Of a DNA stretch of 64,000 nt, positions 2,848-57,631 are shown piece by piece. This stretch comes from Acidobacteriaceae bacterium (lineage in GTDB: Bacteria > Acidobacteriota > Terriglobia > Terriglobales > Acidobacteriaceae). Below the pieces are notes generated by a model. The model made no database searches. It had not been told where the DNA came from and was given only the letters and a program-made list of their open reading frames with translations. The stretch lies in contig PLCO01000053.1 in the NCBI GenBank assembly GCA_003134815.1, positions 1 through 64,000 of the forward strand, read 5' to 3'. The position numbers were made by a program, and so were the translations under genes. Positions within the stretch are counted from its first letter, which is position 1; every line of letters starts with the position of its first letter.

Positions 2848-3849
2848 TCAACTTTTTTCAATTTCTCCGGCGAGCCAGGCTTTGGTATTCAGAAGCTGCC
2901 GCTGATCGAGCGCCCACACCTTGCCCGTCATCTCGTCGGGCGCGCGGCCTTCGCGCGCGGACTTCTCAAACTCGCTGGCCACAGCCTGCATTTTCGCGTC
3001 GAGATCGTCGACGAAGTTCAGCACCAGCGCCTCGGGAATCATGGGCAGCTTGGGCGAGCCGAACTCCAGCTTGCCGTGATGCGACAAAATCATGTGCAGC
3101 ACCAGCGTGCGAAGGCGATCGGGGAAACCGGGCAGCCCGGCGATTGTCTTCTCCACCAATTCGACGCCCATCTGGATGTGCCCCAGGAGCACGCCTTCCA
3201 CTGTGTAGTCGAATCCTGTCTCCCAACTGAGCTCGCGAATCTTGCCGATGTCGTGCAGGATCACTCCCGTAACCAGCAGATCGCGATTGAGCATTGCGTA
3301 GTGCGCGGCCACGCGATCGGCGAGACCCAGCAAACTCACTACGTGCTCCAGCAGCCCGCCCAGCCACGCATGATGCAGTCCTCGCGCAGCCGGCGCCTCG
3401 CGAAACGCCTGTGCGATCGGTGCGTCGGTGAGCAAAGCGGTGAGCAGCCGCTTGAGATCCGGATTAGCTATGCTCGCGACGCTTGCCTCAAGAATCGCCC
3501 ACAGCTCGCCCACGTCGCGTGTGGTCGCGGGCAGCATATCCATCTTGTCGGCTTCGCCGTCGAGCGCCTTGCGAAGCTGATCCACCTTCACCTGCGCGCG
3601 GTCATCGTATCGCGACACGCTGCCGCGCACTTTCACGATGTCGCCACGGTCGAATTCCCTGGCGATACGCGGGTCGCCCAACTCCCACACGCGCCCTTCA
3701 ATCGGCCCCGTCTTGTCGCCGAGCGTCAGGCTCAGATACGGCTTGTTTTGCTTGGTGGTCCGCTGCTGTTTTGCCAGCACCAGGAAGAAGCTGTCGAAAG
3801 GCTTGCCCTCATCGAAGCCCATCAGATCCGCAATATAGATGTCTTTCAT
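2848..3849 (-). CDS. OB-fold/HD domain 3'-5' exoribonuclease, YhaM-like
   Basis: OB part (KPYLSLTLGDKTGPIEGRVWELGD) followed by HD part (VTGVILHDIGKIRELS ... HMILSHHGKLEFGSPKLPMIPEALVLNFVDDLDAKM). Confidence 0.85.
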   Translation of the reverse strand: MKDIYIADLMGFDEGKPFDSFFLVLAKQQRTTKQNKPYLSLTLGDKTGPIEGRVWELGDPRIAREFDRGDIVKVRGSVSRYDDRAQVKVDQLRKALDGEADKMDMLPATTRDVGELWAILEASVASIANPDLKRLLTALLTDAPIAQAFREAPAARGLHHAWLGGLLEHVVSLLGLADRVAAHYAMLNRDLLVTGVILHDIGKIRELSWETGFDYTVEGVLLGHIQMGVELVEKTIAGLPGFPDRLRTLVLHMILSHHGKLEFGSPKLPMIPEALVLNFVDDLDAKMQAVASEFEKSAREGRAPDEMTGKVWALDQRQLLNTKAWLAGEIEKS

Positions 3850-19325: not shown

Positions 19326-19745
19326 ATGCATGAGTTGGCGCTTGCGGAATCGATAATGGATGCGGTGAGCCGGGAGTTGGAAGCGTATCCCGGCGCGACG
19401 CCCCTTCGCGTTGGCGTGAAAGTCGGCGTGATGGCCGCTGTAGATGTAGACGCGTTACGATTCTGTTTCGAGATTGCGGTGCGCGGATCCGAGTGGCCCC
19501 TGTTAAAGCTCGACGCCGAAGTCATTCCGGGCGAGGTGCATTGCCTCACCTGCGGCCACCGGACGCGCGCAGAATCCACCGTGCTGGATTGCGAGCGATG
19601 CGGCTCAACGCAAACCGTAATGCATGGGTCGGATGAATTGGATCTGACTTGTCTGGAGGTAGAGCGGGATGGAAACGATCACGTTGAAGCAGAAGGTGCT
19701 GAGCGAGAACCAGAGAATTGCCACAGCGCTACGCCAGCGTTATGA
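19326..19745 (+). CDS. hypA: hydrogenase nickel incorporation protein HypA
   Basis: MHELALAESIMDAV; zinc site VHCLTCGHRTRAESTVLDCERCG. Confidence 0.93.
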   Translation: MHELALAESIMDAVSRELEAYPGATPLRVGVKVGVMAAVDVDALRFCFEIAVRGSEWPLLKLDAEVIPGEVHCLTCGHRTRAESTVLDCERCGSTQTVMHGSDELDLTCLEVERDGNDHVEAEGAEREPENCHSATPAL

Positions 19746-20370
19746 CGCGGCAGGGCTGCTGTGCCTGAATCTGATTTCGGCGCCGGGCTCCGGCAAGACC
19801 GCGTTGCTTGAAAAAACGCTCGAAGCGCTGGGCCGCGAAGAGCCGTCAAGAAGATTGCGCGTAGCCGTGCTGACCGGAGACATTCAGACCGACAACGATG
19901 CTCGCAGGCTCGCGCGCTACGGCTATCCGGTGAAGCAGATTACGACCGGCGGTACTTGTCATCTGGATGGGACGATGATCGAGCGCGCGCTGGCGGACTG
20001 GAAGCTGGACGAGATTGATCTGCTCTTCATCGAAAACGTGGGCAACCTGGTGTGCCCGTCGAGTTACGACTTGGGCGAACATGCCAAGATCGTGCTGCTC
20101 TCCGTCACCGAGGGCGACGACAAGCCGCTGAAATATCCGTCGATCTTTTTCAAGTCCGAGCTATTTCTCATGACTAAAGTAGACCTGCTGGGGCTGGTGC
20201 CGTTCGATGCCGATGAGGCGGAGCGCAATGCGCGGCGCATTCATCAGGGGATGGAAATTGTGCGTTGCTCGGCCACGAAAGAGGGCGGCCTGGATGGGTG
20301 GTTGAAGTGGCTTGAGGCCAGGCTGGAAGCAGTTCGCGAGGGTCTTCATGCAGGGGTCGCCAGCAATTGA
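19669..20370 (+). CDS. hypB: hydrogenase nickel incorporation GTPase HypB
   Basis: NLISAPGSGKTALLEKTL, VAVLTGDIQTDNDARRL, ITTGGTCHLDGTMIERAL, FIENVGNLVCPSSYDLGE. Confidence 0.95.
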   Translation: METITLKQKVLSENQRIATALRQRYDAAGLLCLNLISAPGSGKTALLEKTLEALGREEPSRRLRVAVLTGDIQTDNDARRLARYGYPVKQITTGGTCHLDGTMIERALADWKLDEIDLLFIENVGNLVCPSSYDLGEHAKIVLLSVTEGDDKPLKYPSIFFKSELFLMTKVDLLGLVPFDADEAERNARRIHQGMEIVRCSATKEGGLDGWLKWLEARLEAVREGLHAGVASN

Positions 20371-22804
20371 CAAGCCGGTCAGTGGCGAGCCGGCTTGCAA
20401 CGAATCTGAGCCGAAGATTTCGCGAGCGCCGGAGCTGATGCCCGCGCTGAAACCTGCAATTGCCCGGCGCAGGATTCGCGTGCGCGGCGTGGTGCAGGGT
20501 GTTGGCTACCGTCCGTTTGTGTTCCGTTTAGCCGAGGAAGAGGAGCTTGTAGGTTGGGTGACCAACGATAGCGAGGGCGTTGTTGCCGAAGTTGAGGGAG
20601 ACCCGACGCAGATCGAGCGATTCATAGGGAGACTGAGCGAGGAGTGGCCGCCTCTGGCGCGTGTGGATGCTGTTGAGTCCGAAGCGATAGACGCGACACT
20701 TGAGACAGGATTCATCATCCATGCAAGTGAGCGAGGAGCGGAAGCGCGCACCGGAATTCCGGCCGATGCTGCGACCTGCCCGGATTGTCTACGCGAACTT
20801 TTTGATACCAACGATCGACGGTATGGATACCCCTTTCTGAATTGCACCAACTGCGGCCCGCGATTCACGCTGACCAGAAGCGTTCCCTATGACCGGCCGC
20901 AGACCTCGATGGCGAATTTTCAAATGTGCCCTGAGTGCCAGCGAGAGTACGACGATCCGCGTGATCGACGCTTCCACGCGCAGCCGAATGCATGCGCAGT
21001 GTGCGGGCCTCGGCTCATGTTCGTCGACGCGCCCGGCGCGACCGCGAAAGCCGTGGCCGGCTCGCCGCTTGAAGAAACAATCTCCCGGCTCCTGCGCGGC
21101 GAAATCATTGCCATCAAGGGCGTGGGCGGATTTCATCTCGCCGTGGATGCGGAAAAGAGTGCTGCCGTGCGCAGGCTGCGCGAGCGCAAACATCGAGCCG
21201 GCAAGCCATTTGCGGTGATGGTAAAAGATGAGGCCGCGGCCGCGCATTTGTGCAAGATGAGCGAGGCAGAGCGACGGCTGCTGACGAGCGTGGAGCGGCC
21301 AGTAGTCCTGATGAGAAGACTGGAATCAACGACGCTGGAAATCGATGATGGGCCGCACATCGCAGCCGAAGTTGCTCCCGGATTACCGGAGCCCAGTCTG
21401 CCGTGGCCCAGTCTCCCATGGCTCGGGATTTTTCTTCCTTACGCGCCGCTCCATCATTTGCTATTTGTCGACGGCAGGCTGAAAGCGTTGGTGATGACCA
21501 GCGCTAATCTTTCCGACGAACCGATCTGCATTGATAACGACGAGGCGAGGGAACGGCTGGCTGGGATCGCCGATGGCTTTCTGCTGCATGATCGCGAGAT
21601 CCTGCAGCGCTGCGATGACTCTGTGATGGCTGTGGTGGAAGGCGAGCAGCAGTTCCTGCGCCGGGCTCGTGGATATGTTCCGCTGGCAGTGCGTTTGCCG
21701 GTAGCGGCACGGCCCTTGCTGGCCGTGGGCGGCCAGATGAAGTGTGTGTTTACACTCGCGCGCGGGCATGAAGCATTTCAAAGCCAGCATATTGGCGATC
21801 TGGAATACCTCCCAGGCATGGATTTTTTTGAAAGCGCTCTCGCGCACATGCAGAAGACGTTCGATGTGCGGCCCGAGTGCGTGGTGCACGATCTGCATCC
21901 GGAGTATCTGTCCACGCAATGGGCACAGGAACAAACGGAGAGTCGCGGCATCAGGCGCATGGCGGTGCAGCATCATCACGCTCATATTGCGGCGTGCATG
22001 GCGGAGCACGGCGTCACCAATCAGGTGATTGGGATCGCGCTCGATGGCTCGGGCTTTGGCAGCGATGGAACGGTTTGGGGCGGCGAGGTATTGATTGCCG
22101 ATCTGTGCGACTTCAGGCGTGTAGGGCATCTGCGCGCGTTGCCCATGCCCGGCGGATCGAAGGCAGTGGAACAGCCGTGGAGAATGGCGATGAGCGCAGT
22201 ATGGAGTTTGCTGGGCGAAGATGCCGCGCGCGAACTGACTTGGCCAGAGCAAGATGAAAAACTCTTGCTCGCATGGATGCGGCGTGGGCCTGTTGGCCCG
22301 CTTACCTCGAGTTGTGGAAGGTTGTTCGATGCGGTGGCCGCGCTGGTGACTGGCCGGGCCGCAGTTGATTATGAAGCACAGGCGGCCATCGAGCTTGAGG
22401 GGTTGGCCGATGAAGGCGAATGGGGAAGCTATGTAGCTGACGTCGTGGCGGGTGAAGACGGTTGGTTGATTGAGCCGCGAGCGATGTTGCAACAACTGCT
22501 TGAAGACAGGCGCACGGGCGTGAACGCAGCAGTGATGAGTGCACGCTTCCATTCCTGGGTAGCGCGCAGCTTTGCGCTGGCGGTACAACACGCGCGTGAA
22601 AGCACGTTGCTGACCCGAGTATGCTTGTCAGGCGGAACGATGCATAATCATTTGCTTACCCGATTGTTGAAGTGTGAGTTGAACGCGATGGGGTTCGAGG
22701 TGCTGCTGCACCGGGACGTAAGCCCGGGCGATGGCGGATTGAGTTACGGTCAGGCGGCAGTGGCCGCAGCGCGAATGAATGCGGAGTTCGATCGACCTGG
22801 TTAG
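20348..22804 (+). CDS. hypF: carbamoyltransferase HypF
   Basis: Acylphosphatase part RRIRVRGVVQGVGYRPFVFRLA; zinc fingers CPDCLRELF ... CTNCGPRFT ... CPECQREYDD ... CAVCGPRL; VQHHHAHIAACMAEHG. Exact start uncertain. Confidence 0.93.
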   Translation: MQGSPAIDKPVSGEPACNESEPKISRAPELMPALKPAIARRRIRVRGVVQGVGYRPFVFRLAEEEELVGWVTNDSEGVVAEVEGDPTQIERFIGRLSEEWPPLARVDAVESEAIDATLETGFIIHASERGAEARTGIPADAATCPDCLRELFDTNDRRYGYPFLNCTNCGPRFTLTRSVPYDRPQTSMANFQMCPECQREYDDPRDRRFHAQPNACAVCGPRLMFVDAPGATAKAVAGSPLEETISRLLRGEIIAIKGVGGFHLAVDAEKSAAVRRLRERKHRAGKPFAVMVKDEAAAAHLCKMSEAERRLLTSVERPVVLMRRLESTTLEIDDGPHIAAEVAPGLPEPSLPWPSLPWLGIFLPYAPLHHLLFVDGRLKALVMTSANLSDEPICIDNDEARERLAGIADGFLLHDREILQRCDDSVMAVVEGEQQFLRRARGYVPLAVRLPVAARPLLAVGGQMKCVFTLARGHEAFQSQHIGDLEYLPGMDFFESALAHMQKTFDVRPECVVHDLHPEYLSTQWAQEQTESRGIRRMAVQHHHAHIAACMAEHGVTNQVIGIALDGSGFGSDGTVWGGEVLIADLCDFRRVGHLRALPMPGGSKAVEQPWRMAMSAVWSLLGEDAARELTWPEQDEKLLLAWMRRGPVGPLTSSCGRLFDAVAALVTGRAAVDYEAQAAIELEGLADEGEWGSYVADVVAGEDGWLIEPRAMLQQLLEDRRTGVNAAVMSARFHSWVARSFALAVQHARESTLLTRVCLSGGTMHNHLLTRLLKCELNAMGFEVLLHRDVSPGDGGLSYGQAAVAAARMNAEFDRPG

Positions 22805-22829: not shown

Positions 22830-22904
22830 TGGAGGCGCGGGCCGGGATCGAACCGGCGCATAAAGGTTTTGCAGACCTCTCCCTTACCACTTGGGTACCG
22901 CGCC
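22830..22904 (-). tRNA. tRNA-Cys (GCA)
   Basis: GGCGCGG/CCGCGCC acceptor, loop CTGCAAA (anticodon GCA), T arm GGTTCGATCCC, encoded CCA, U73. Confidence 0.93.
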
Positions 22905-22983: not shown

Positions 22984-23058
22984 TGGAGCGGGAGACGAGA
23001 CTTGAACTCGCGACCCTCGCCTTGGCAAGGCGATGCTCTACCACTGAGCTACTCCCGC
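22984..23058 (-). tRNA. tRNA-Gly (GCC)
   Basis: GCGGGAG/CTCCCGC acceptor, loop TTGCCAA, T arm GAGTTCAAGTCTC, encoded CCA. Confidence 0.93.
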
Positions 23059-23062
23059 TTAG

Positions 23063-23174
23063 ACCGGTTCCTGAGTTGTTGTAGCCCTTTCAGAAGTCGT
23101 GCAAAGTGGCTCTTTCTTGAGGAAAGAGCCACTTGAGTGCAATGGCTTCGGGATACAGTAACTCAGGAACCGGT
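23063..23174 (-). ncRNA. nested inverted-repeat element B, candidate structured leader of the tRNA-Gly/tRNA-Cys transcript
   Basis: Outer arms ACCGGTTCCTGAGTT / AACTCAGGAACCGGT (15-bp perfect) and inner hairpin AAGTGGCTCTTTC-TTGAG-GAAAGAGCCACTT (13-bp perfect). The structure is certain; the RNA assignment is inferred. Confidence 0.55.
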
Positions 23175-23188
23175 GTAACGCAAGTTCG

Positions 23189-23217
23189 AGTATACCGGGC
23201 TGCCGAAACCGGGTCAA
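23189..23217 (-). promoter_or_regulatory. sigma70-like promoter for tRNA-Gly/tRNA-Cys
   Basis: Minus strand TTGACC - 17 bp - TATACT, upstream of element B and tRNA-Gly. Confidence 0.65.
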
Positions 23218-29788: not shown

Positions 29789-31512
29789 TACAAATCCGCC
29801 CCTTCCGATGCAATGAAGATTCCCGCGCGCTGCAGCAGTTGATGTACCGCCGCGACGGCATGCATTCTGTTTTCGGCGTCGAGCGTGATATCGAAACCGC
29901 CCGCGCTTGCCGTCAGCGCGCCATCATCGCCGGTACGCGCCACAAGGGTGAGCAAACCCGATTGAGTTTGCAGGTCGGTGACGGCATCAAGCAATCCCAA
30001 GTGCTGCAGCGTCGCTCGTTCGCCGGCGTTGATGCGGCATGTGACCGCGCCAATGGCAAACAGCGAGCGCTCTACTGCGTCAATCAGCTCCGTCGGCCCG
30101 GCCAGCTCCAACACGCCACCGCGATGACCCCTGCGCGCCTCACGCTCACCGGAGGTTACATGACCCCACGCGCCTGCCTCGTCTTCCTCGCTCGCCACCG
30201 TCTTGCCTTGCGCCGCGGTTACCATGCCCGCCGCAACGGTGGCATTCGTTTCCGGATCGATGAGAATCAGCGCGCCGGTCCCGCGGTTTTCGCGATAGAG
30301 GTCGACCGCGATCGGCCGCAGCAGATGCAGCGAGACCGCGCCGATGTCGTTCATGCGCAGCGTCAGCGCCGGCTCGTGCTTCAGCGCTCCCAGATCCACG
30401 CGATGATCGATGAGCGATACAAATGCGGGAACAGTGTGGCTTGTATGCTTCAGCATGTAGCGGCGATTTACATCCAGCGGCCGCTGATCCATCCACACTA
30501 GCGACGCTTTCACGCTGCTGGCCACCACGGGCGCTGCGCCGACGCCGGCAATCAAATCGCCCCGGCTGATGTCGACCTCACGATCGAGCACCAGCGTCAC
30601 GGATAGCGGCGCGGTCACTTCGTCGGGCTCGCCGTCAAACGTCACAATGCGCTCGACCTTCGCCGTGCGCCCCGAGGGAAAGACTGCAATCTCGTCGCCG
30701 CGGCGGACAGTTCCCGACGCAATCTGCCCCGCGAATCCACGGAAGGTGTGATCGGGCCGCAACACGCGCTGCACGGGAAAACGAAAAGGCGAGCTGCGCG
30801 TGTCCAGCGCGGAGGGCAGAGCCTCGAGCAGTTGCAGCAGCGACGGCCCTGTATACCAGGGCATCGCGCCCGTAGCATGGACCACGTTATCACCCTTCAG
30901 AGCGCTCACCGGAACAAAGTGAGCCTCGACCGGCGAGCCGGTGTCGGTTGCGATCTGGTCAAGAATTGCCCTGAATTCGGTCTCGATAGCGCGAAAGGTC
31001 GATTCGTCGTAGCCGATCAGATCCATTTTGTTCACGGCCACCAGCACATGGCGCACGCGCAGCAGCGAGGCGATATAGGCGTGACGCCGCGACTGGATCT
31101 GCACTCCCTTGCTCGCGTCGATGAGCACGATGGCTGCGTCGGCGGTCGATGCGCCCGTGGCCATATTGCGCGTGTACTGCTCGTGGCCGGGCGTATCGGC
31201 AATGATGAACTTGCGCCGCGCTGTGGAGAAATAGCGGTACGCCACATCAATGGTGATGCCCTGCTCGCGCTCGGCGCGCAGCCCGTCCGTCAGCAGCGCA
31301 AAGTCGATCTGTCCCGGCGCGGTCGTGCCCTTGCCTTCAATCGACTTTACCTGGTCTTCGTAGACCGATTGCGTGTCGTAGAGCAGCCGACCGATGAGCG
31401 TCGACTTGCCGTCGTCCACGCTGCCCGCTGTGGAGAAACGCAGCAGGTCCTTCCCGCGTTCGGCAAGCAGGAATTCCTCGATGGAAAATGCGGGTGTCGC
31501 AACGGTCGCCAC
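29788..31512 (-). CDS. cysN: sulfate adenylyltransferase large subunit with about 130-aa C-terminal extension
   Basis: FSTAGSVDDGKSTLIGRLLYDT, ADTPGHEQYTRNMATGAS, VAVNKMDLIGYD; core appears complete at LILIDPETNATVAAGMV. Confidence 0.93.
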   Translation of the reverse strand: MATVATPAFSIEEFLLAERGKDLLRFSTAGSVDDGKSTLIGRLLYDTQSVYEDQVKSIEGKGTTAPGQIDFALLTDGLRAEREQGITIDVAYRYFSTARRKFIIADTPGHEQYTRNMATGASTADAAIVLIDASKGVQIQSRRHAYIASLLRVRHVLVAVNKMDLIGYDESTFRAIETEFRAILDQIATDTGSPVEAHFVPVSALKGDNVVHATGAMPWYTGPSLLQLLEALPSALDTRSSPFRFPVQRVLRPDHTFRGFAGQIASGTVRRGDEIAVFPSGRTAKVERIVTFDGEPDEVTAPLSVTLVLDREVDISRGDLIAGVGAAPVVASSVKASLVWMDQRPLDVNRRYMLKHTSHTVPAFVSLIDHRVDLGALKHEPALTLRMNDIGAVSLHLLRPIAVDLYRENRGTGALILIDPETNATVAAGMVTAAQGKTVASEEDEAGAWGHVTSGEREARRGHRGGVLELAGPTELIDAVERSLFAIGAVTCRINAGERATLQHLGLLDAVTDLQTQSGLLTLVARTGDDGALTASAGGFDITLDAENRMHAVAAVHQLLQRAGIFIASEGADL

Positions 31513-50870: not shown

Positions 50871-50910
50871 ACGATATTCGGGACTGAATGATGATGCCTG
50901 GCCCGAGCCG

Positions 50911-51060
50911 CCCAAGACTCGTTCGCCCAAGACTCGTGCGCCCAAGACTCGTGCGTCCAAGACTCGTGCGTCCAAGACTCGTGCGCTCAAGAATCGTGCG
51001 CCCAAGACTCGTGCGCTCAAGAATCGTGCGCCCAAGACTCGTGCGCCGTAGAATCGTGGA
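50911..51060. repeat. 10 x 15-bp tandem repeat, consensus CCCAAGACTCGTGCG
   Basis: Ten contiguous 15-mers read directly; ends 10 bp before the thiolase ATG. Confidence 0.97.
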
Positions 51061-55591: not shown

Positions 55592-57252
55592 ACCCGCGAC
55601 GCTTGTGCGCTATGGTCGCCTGTACCGGACTTCTCGTTTTATTCGTCTGCATGTCACGACTCCCGGCTCAGCCCACCCGCGCCGACGCCGAAAAAGATCC
55701 CGTCCTCAAAGCCATGCTCGCTGAACTCGATCGCAGCATGAGCCAGCTCCAGTTGCAGGGCTTTGCCAAGCCCTTCTTCATCCAGTACCGCATTGAAGAC
55801 GTCAACGACTTCCAGACCACCGCCGAATTCGGCTCAAGCGAAGGCTCTGACCACGCTCACCAGCGCGTCGTGCGCGTCACTGTCCGCGTCGGCGACTACA
55901 AAACCGACAGCTCCGGCGTGCGCGGCGATGGCTCGCTCCAAGTGACCGCACTCGACGACGACCTCATCGCCCTGCGCTCTTCGCTCTGGACCGCCACCGA
56001 CACGGCCTACAAAAATGCTCTCTCCGCCTATGCGCAAAAGCAGGCGGAGCTGAAGCAGGTGCAAACCCCGCCGCAGGCCGACGACTTCAGCCAGGAGAAG
56101 CCCATCGTCTCGCTTGGCCCACCCATCGCCCTTCACGTCGACGAGAACTCCTGGGCCGATCGCGTCGCCCGCGTCAGTGGCCTCTACCGCACCGATGCCT
56201 CAGTAACCGCCAGCGAGCGCGACATCGAGTACTCCAACGCCAGTTTTCGCGCTCGCGCTATCACCACCCGGCTCGTCACCAGCGAAGGAACCATCGTTCG
56301 CAAGTCCGCAGTCGACTATCAGGAATCCTTTGCCGCCGGCGCGCAGGCCCCGGACGGCATGCGCCTCGACCGCTCTTACGGATCGTCCGGAACCTCGCCT
56401 GCCGACCTCGACTCAGAGACCGTATTCAATCAGCACGCGGTCGCGGAGCTTGCTTCGCTCGCAGAGCTTCGCAAGGCTCCCCTTGTCGAAGAGGAGTACC
56501 ACGGCCCGCTCCTCTTCTCGGCCGACGCAGCTGCCGACACACTGCACAGCCTCCTCGCCGCGGCGGTCACAGCCACGCGCCCTGCTCTTGGCACTGAAGC
56601 TCGCACCAACGGCGCGTTCGCTTCCAGCTACCACGCGCGCGTACTGCCTGACTTCATGAACGTCGTCGACGATCCCAGCTTGACCACATTCAACGGGAAA
56701 AGCCTCCTCGGCGCCGATGCCGTCGACGACGAGGGCGTCGCCGCGCAGCCCGTCAAGCTCGTCAATGCCGGCCGCCTCGACAATTACCTCATGGGCCGCC
56801 AGCCCGTCCGCGACTTCCCGCAATCGAACGGCCACGGCCGCGCCGGAATCACCGGCCCGCCGCACCCCATGATCGGCGTCCTCAAAATCTCCGCCGACAA
56901 TGGCCTCTCAACCGATGATCTCAACAAGAAGCTCCTCGACATGGCAAAGGATCGCGGCCTTGCCAGCGTTTATTTCGTGCAGACAATGGGCCCCGACCGC
57001 TCTCCTCGCCTGCTCTACCGCGTCAGCCCCGACGGCAAGCGCGAGCTGGTGCGCGGCGCAGAGATCGACGACGTCGACGATCGTGCACTTCGCTCCAGCA
57101 TTGACGCTGCCGGCAACGATCTCTGGGTCGCCAACTACTTCGCGGATCCCCCCACCACTGTTCTCGCGCCCGCGCTGCTCTTTGACGATGCCACCGTCCG
57201 CCGCGCCAACGCCAAAAACGACAAGCTGCCCTTCTATCCGCCTCCTGAATAA
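55588..57252 (+). CDS. TldE/PmbA-like partner lacking HExxxH, putatively exported
   Basis: Parallel layout to the upstream TldD but LLFSADAAADTLHSLLAAAVT where the metal motif should be; N-terminal LCAMVACTGLLVLFVCMSRLPAQ. Confidence 0.82.
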   Translation: MNPRRLCAMVACTGLLVLFVCMSRLPAQPTRADAEKDPVLKAMLAELDRSMSQLQLQGFAKPFFIQYRIEDVNDFQTTAEFGSSEGSDHAHQRVVRVTVRVGDYKTDSSGVRGDGSLQVTALDDDLIALRSSLWTATDTAYKNALSAYAQKQAELKQVQTPPQADDFSQEKPIVSLGPPIALHVDENSWADRVARVSGLYRTDASVTASERDIEYSNASFRARAITTRLVTSEGTIVRKSAVDYQESFAAGAQAPDGMRLDRSYGSSGTSPADLDSETVFNQHAVAELASLAELRKAPLVEEEYHGPLLFSADAAADTLHSLLAAAVTATRPALGTEARTNGAFASSYHARVLPDFMNVVDDPSLTTFNGKSLLGADAVDDEGVAAQPVKLVNAGRLDNYLMGRQPVRDFPQSNGHGRAGITGPPHPMIGVLKISADNGLSTDDLNKKLLDMAKDRGLASVYFVQTMGPDRSPRLLYRVSPDGKRELVRGAEIDDVDDRALRSSIDAAGNDLWVANYFADPPTTVLAPALLFDDATVRRANAKNDKLPFYPPPE

Positions 57253-57409
57253 AGCGGAACCGGAGTCGGCGTATCCTGAAAGCACTGACTTCAAGTCGAC
57301 GCGACCATCCCGGGGTCCCCAACGACGGACATTTGTCGTTGGGGTGGGAGCATCAGGGAGCGGCGACCCGACTCAAAACTCAATAGGACACGGTTACTCC
57401 GGTTCCGCT
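57253..57409. ncRNA. nested inverted-repeat element A (structured RNA or MITE/REP-like candidate)
   Basis: Outer arms AGCGGAACCGGAGT / ACTCCGGTTCCGCT (14-bp perfect); inner hairpin CCCCAACGAC-GGACATTT-GTCGTTGGGG (10-bp perfect). Confidence 0.55.
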
Positions 57410-57631
57410 CTAGCGCTATATTTCGTTATTGGGCCGGCTCGACAACGCTGGCTCGCAACCGTCCATTTCCTCCCCATGCATCTCACTCTGTGAACTTTCA
57501 CGCACCCCGGCCGCCCGTTTCCGCATCCATCTGATAGGTGTCTTTCTCGCCCGGCAGTTGAATTTAATCAACACACAATTCATCCGGGCCAAACCCACAA
57601 AGTACAATCCGAACGAAGGAGATTTTCCCCT

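Follow-up and report, generated by a model that had tools for sequence, protein, structure and literature searches.

The nested inverted repeat that fills the leader of the tRNA-Gly-tRNA-Cys operon is very probably a non-autonomous IS630 (Tc1/mariner-type) MITE that inserted there, an option that the sequence-only reading had listed last and that is borne out by an empty site, by duplication of the TA, by copies dispersed through the genome and by IS630 elements whose ends have the same motif. At this tRNA-Gly locus, which it occupies in the source genome alone among the genomes compared, the element is in all likelihood a tolerated passenger rather than a regulator.

The element and its empty site

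The coordinates of all features in the window (the whole 64-kb stretch of DNA analysed) are collected in Table 1. The nested repeat reported from the letters alone is real: the 15-bp outer arms, their inward extension by TGTAnCCC/GGGnTACA and the inner hairpin, with a perfect 13-bp stem (23104-23116 / 23122-23134) and a 5-nt loop, are all present, and the structure ranks among the strongest inverted repeats in the whole window. The limits originally given, 23063-23174, are correct for the arms, but the element itself is slightly wider and extends from TA to TA. Folding of the minus-strand RNA, which had been proposed as a check, gave -61.8 kcal/mol (z -9.3), better than every shuffle (-27.8 +/- 3.7, none equal).

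Table 1. Features of the tRNA-Gly-tRNA-Cys locus and of the second family member in the window
Feature	Position	Strand	Details
Putative MITE copy, TA to TA	23060..23177	-	116 bp, together with one duplicated TA
TA target-site duplication, promoter-proximal copy	23176..23177	.	aligned with empty site CCGCT|TAACGC of G006
TA target-site duplication, tRNA-proximal copy	23060..23061	.	aligned with empty site CCGCT|TAACGC of G006
Terminal inverted repeat, promoter-side arm, 15 bp	23160..23174	-	perfect complement of 23063-23077
Terminal inverted repeat, tRNA-side arm, 15 bp	23063..23077	-	perfect complement of 23160-23174; arms covary across 61 non-redundant copies
Inner hairpin AAGTGGCTCTTTC-CTCAA-GAAAGAGCCACTT	23104..23134	-	best conserved part of the family; compensatory changes
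tRNA-Gly(GCC)	22984..23058	-	ARAGORN; Rfam tRNA match
tRNA-Cys(GCA)	22830..22904	-	ARAGORN; Rfam tRNA match
tRNA-operon promoter TTGACC-17-TATACT	23189..23217	-	upstream of the element; conserved at orthologous loci in the same genus
Second family member, longer size class, TAAAGC...GCTCTA	57250..57412	+	46.7 bits, E 3.1e-7

The closest relative that has the tRNA-Gly locus, G006, carries a tRNA block that is 94% identical, and in this genome the promoter block abuts the tRNA block directly, with an overlap of two bases, TA. In the alignment, CCGCT|TAACGC of G006 corresponds in the window to CCGCTTA, followed by the element and then by TGTAACGC, so that the filled site has an exact empty counterpart bearing only one TA, the pattern sought for a MITE. 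Altogether 19 same-genus loci, G006 included, are free of the element and show TATACT followed after 14-15 nt by tRNA-Gly (GCGGGAGTAGCTCAGTGG). Given the single TA in G006 and the 18 further element-free loci, the comparison indicates that the element inserted at a TA within a leader of ~8 nt and duplicated this TA. Three further copies in the same genome (L030, L039, and L040) are missing from the matching place in relatives; their alignments fall short of exactness at both edges at once, so they count as absent in relatives and do not define exact boundaries. In another species (G015), the tRNA-Gly leader contains a ~88-nt stem-loop, GAAGCATCTTCAGG...CCTGAAGGTGCC (L143 and L072, G015 C121, about 3729-3813); this insertion was considered as a family member and rejected given its different sequence, and it is present as a single copy in G015 and in none of the three other genomes searched.

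The promoter noted just upstream on the minus strand is indeed present and is retained in 19-20 same-genus genomes at orthologous tRNA loci. Since the same promoter runs into tRNA-Gly in the 19 element-free loci, it belongs to the operon and predates the insertion, which places the element inside the transcribed leader. The earlier suggestion of a transcribed leader of roughly 120 nt is therefore well supported as far as transcription is concerned, and the length would become ~124 nt if the start lies ~7 nt past the -10 box. The mature tRNA-Gly begins, as had been observed and in agreement with ARAGORN, 4 nt past the 15-bp arms; the element would thus separate it from the likely start site, and the leader would have grown from ~8 to ~124 nt. 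No intrinsic terminator was predicted. On the other side of the operon, two ORFs on the plus strand (19669-22804) that by eye resemble the hydrogenase maturation genes hypB and hypF converge on it.

The element might, alternatively, be a dedicated structured leader RNA, or a small RNA transcribed together with the tRNA-Gly/Cys operon, that acts in the regulation or processing of this operon, as the sequence-only reading had also proposed. The very stable fold, the conserved promoter upstream and the covariation of both stems across the family (see below) are compatible with such an RNA. Nevertheless, it is highly improbable given that the 19 relatives run the operon from the ~8-nt leader, that the family occupies about 50 dispersed and mostly unrelated sites in the genome and that, at gathering and relaxed thresholds, tRNA alone among Rfam families reaches the gathering score. 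The Rfam search, another of the checks initially suggested, thus yielded no family besides tRNA that would explain the element; weak matches to miRNA precursors (<=25.9 bits, with a cut-off of 100) were dismissed as long-hairpin noise.

A dispersed repeat family and its probable transposase

Four copies retrieved from the source genome by DNA search were aligned to build a covariance model, which was run against this genome and related ones, as the earlier reading had recommended. In the source genome (4.18 Mb), the model matched some 50 separate sites, nearly all over its whole length; the copy in the tRNA-Gly leader scored 126 bits, having itself been part of the model. The members are 116-160 bp long, encode no protein and fall into two size classes of ~117 and ~157 nt, so that the short length, the multiple copies, the absence of a coding gene and the terminal inverted repeats are all those of a MITE. 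The family was matched in 24 of the 41 genomes searched (the source genome counted), and a scan of named genomes for the exact pattern yielded at least 117 stretches. Among the matches listed, the titles are almost all those of Acidobacteriaceae, Acidobacteriales or Terracidiphilus MAGs, together with one 'Rhodoferax' MAG contig. The latter copy (L155, JARLJI010000229.1) comes from a short contig that was assigned to a Rhodoferax sp. bin; horizontal transfer could account for it, although an error of binning is more likely. Two related genomes each contain five letter-identical copies between five different flank pairs, which argues that the family moved recently.

The element at 57253 that had been paired with the tRNA-Gly one proved to be a member of this family; its ends match those of copy L052 at 22 of 29 and 26 of 29 positions, and its fold has a predicted energy of -77.4 kcal/mol (z -5.6). 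Elsewhere in the window, an isolated TA-anchored 29-mer at 31379 (plus strand) matches the family ends at 22/29 and is possibly a decayed solo end or a chance match, and ten 15-bp units repeated in tandem (CGCCCAAGACTCGTG; 89% matches) occupy positions 50909-51058.

Both termini carry TA in 22 of 49 copies in the source genome and in 64 of 84 copies elsewhere, with TA accounting for 1.8% of the dinucleotides of the window. These ends, together with the TA target duplication at the tRNA-Gly locus, which is that expected of this group, indicate an element of the IS630/Tc1-mariner type. Elements of the IS630 family, ~1.03 kb in length, are present in same-genus genomes. One of these, L106, comprises about 1.03 kb between the ends TAGAGCAGTTCTCCTATTGCTGTAGAGCG and TAGAGCATTTCTCCAGATGTTGTAGAG, with two overlapping frames whose protein matches DDE_3 (5e-32) and the NCBIfam IS630 model (133 bits, cut-off 100). 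Many IS630 elements have TAGAGC...TGTAGA-like ends and lineage-specific middles, mirroring the arm variants of the MITEs. At best, IS630 ends and MITE ends agree at 25-26 of 29 positions, whereas outside the two elements the TA-anchored 29-mers of the window score <=19/29, with one at 22; this null is approximate because the genome's own copies are among the MITE ends used as reference. The sharing of ends was found at the level of the family (L106, L285, L290, L266, and others); the arms of the tRNA-Gly copy itself agree with the collected IS630 ends at just 19-20 of 29 positions. Thus, the ~1.03-kb IS630 insertion sequences that share the TAGAGC...TGTAGA end motif are the likely autonomous partners in the genus. 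No autonomous IS630 with family ends was found in the source genome: its two DDE_3 genes (L094 and L095), considered as partners, have neither inverted repeats nor matching ends, so the partner of the copies in this genome is lost, unassembled or elsewhere.

A different origin, as a REP/TIR element mobilised by a tyrosine (Y1) transposase of the RAYT/TIRYT group, would be in line with the TIR families reported in Koribacter and other Acidobacteria (PMC3733652), with an internal GTAG in many copies and with the two Y1_Tnp genes in the source genome. Neither Y1_Tnp locus is flanked by family repeats, however, the best match to the ends being 17/29, which is the null level, and this origin was rejected as hardly credible. 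Transposition of the IS200/IS605 type is not known to produce a TA target duplication; the duplication and the TA...TA ends suit IS630.

In the most plausible scenario, a unit of ~116 bp with inverted ends of the TAGAGC.../TACAGC... type entered a TA of the ~8-nt leader and the TA was duplicated, as the empty site shows; the enzyme responsible would be a transposase of the IS630 family encoded by another element, its identity suggested by the matching ends. The operon promoter was left intact, so that the transcript would open with the ~124-nt leader, presumably folded as a long double hairpin that ends 4 nt before the tRNA, and the leader could be removed by RNase P, perhaps aided by RNase III acting on the long duplex.

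Covariation of the stems and the tRNA leaders

Among 61 non-redundant copies, pairing is retained in 91% of the cells of the outer arms and in 92% of those of the inner hairpin. Double changes occur at 13 of 14 arm pairs and at 9 of 11 hairpin pairs, and controls, both slid and shuffled, gave lower values. The middle stem is poorly kept in the same copies (59%). We infer that the covariation of the arms follows from the requirement of every IS630 lineage for matching ends. Binding of the ends by the transposase does not account for the covariation of the inner hairpin, a point that counts against the MITE reading; this covariation could result from selection on an RNA or a cruciform or from template-switch repair of the palindrome.

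A second copy, older and more decayed, is located in the source genome 1 nt before a tRNA with a CAT anticodon (L043:1500-1666; C15:63886-64052); this tRNA is cut off by the contig end and, being truncated, was not called by ARAGORN. G006 has the same upstream sequence at the CAT-tRNA site without a family copy. In G010 and G004, family copies precede the CAT tRNA by about 40 nt (L294, G010 C278, and L295, G004 C12), close to the expected position of the promoter.

These observations bear on two readings that assign a function to the repeat. One is that the inner hairpin is under selection, the MITE RNA or cruciform being functional, and that it repeatedly finds a safe harbour in the leaders of pre-tRNAs, where it alters tRNA maturation; it draws on three leaders, those of tRNA-Gly, of the second tRNA in the source genome and of G015 with its unrelated stem-loop, and we regard it as doubtful. 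The other is that the element, a MITE by origin, was co-opted at the tRNA operon, where its hairpin would delay or tune pre-tRNA maturation or add an RNase III cut. Cleavage of Correia/NEMIS transcripts by RNase III (PMC2229807, PMC10969869) and the presence of the second copy in the leader of the CAT tRNA of the source genome speak for co-option; given that, of the genomes compared, a single one carries the element at the tRNA-Gly locus and that, in the predicted pre-tRNA, the tRNA fold remains essentially intact beside the leader hairpin, it appears unlikely. A search of open-access papers on MITEs with tRNA leaders found nothing relevant.

Comparison with known miniature elements

The tRNA-leader location is a curiosity of ordinary cause, at a tRNA locus that is otherwise ordinary: an odd tRNA leader is explained as a mobile-element insertion caught together with its empty site. 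The analysis defines an IS630-type MITE family across many genomes of Terriglobia (Acidobacteriota), along with its likely autonomous partners, and the locus offers a natural test of the leader bulk that RNase P tolerates, with a predicted ~124-nt hairpin leader in place of one of ~8 nt. The open-access literature contained no paper joining Acidobacteria, IS630 and miniature inverted repeats, and the family is apparently undescribed until now.

The TIR families of TIRYT/RAYT systems (PMC3733652) resemble this family in being dispersed inverted repeats of the same phylum, Acidobacteria, but depend on a different class of transposase, and no Y1 transposase with family ends was found in the source genome. 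The RUP element of Streptococcus pneumoniae is a multi-copy repeat of 107 bp with TA termini and target and with IS630-Spn1 as its partner (PMC2229807). By description, the likeness extends to size, TA termini and TA target, ends in common with an IS630-family insertion sequence and copy number, whereas the Terriglobia family belongs to another phylum and has many covarying arm variants, a conserved inner hairpin and the ~117/~157-nt classes. The Correia/NEMIS elements of Neisseria, of ~107 and ~155 bp, have TA termini with duplication and long inverted repeats and give rise to long stem-loop RNA (PMC2229807); they are likewise matched by description in the two size classes, the TA ends and duplication and the long stem-loop, but they too belong to another phylum, and the promoter, the IHF site and RNase III cutting are features of Correia/NEMIS. 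The family described here is thus a new family of IS630-type MITEs that works like RUP and Correia/NEMIS, to which it is likened by description.
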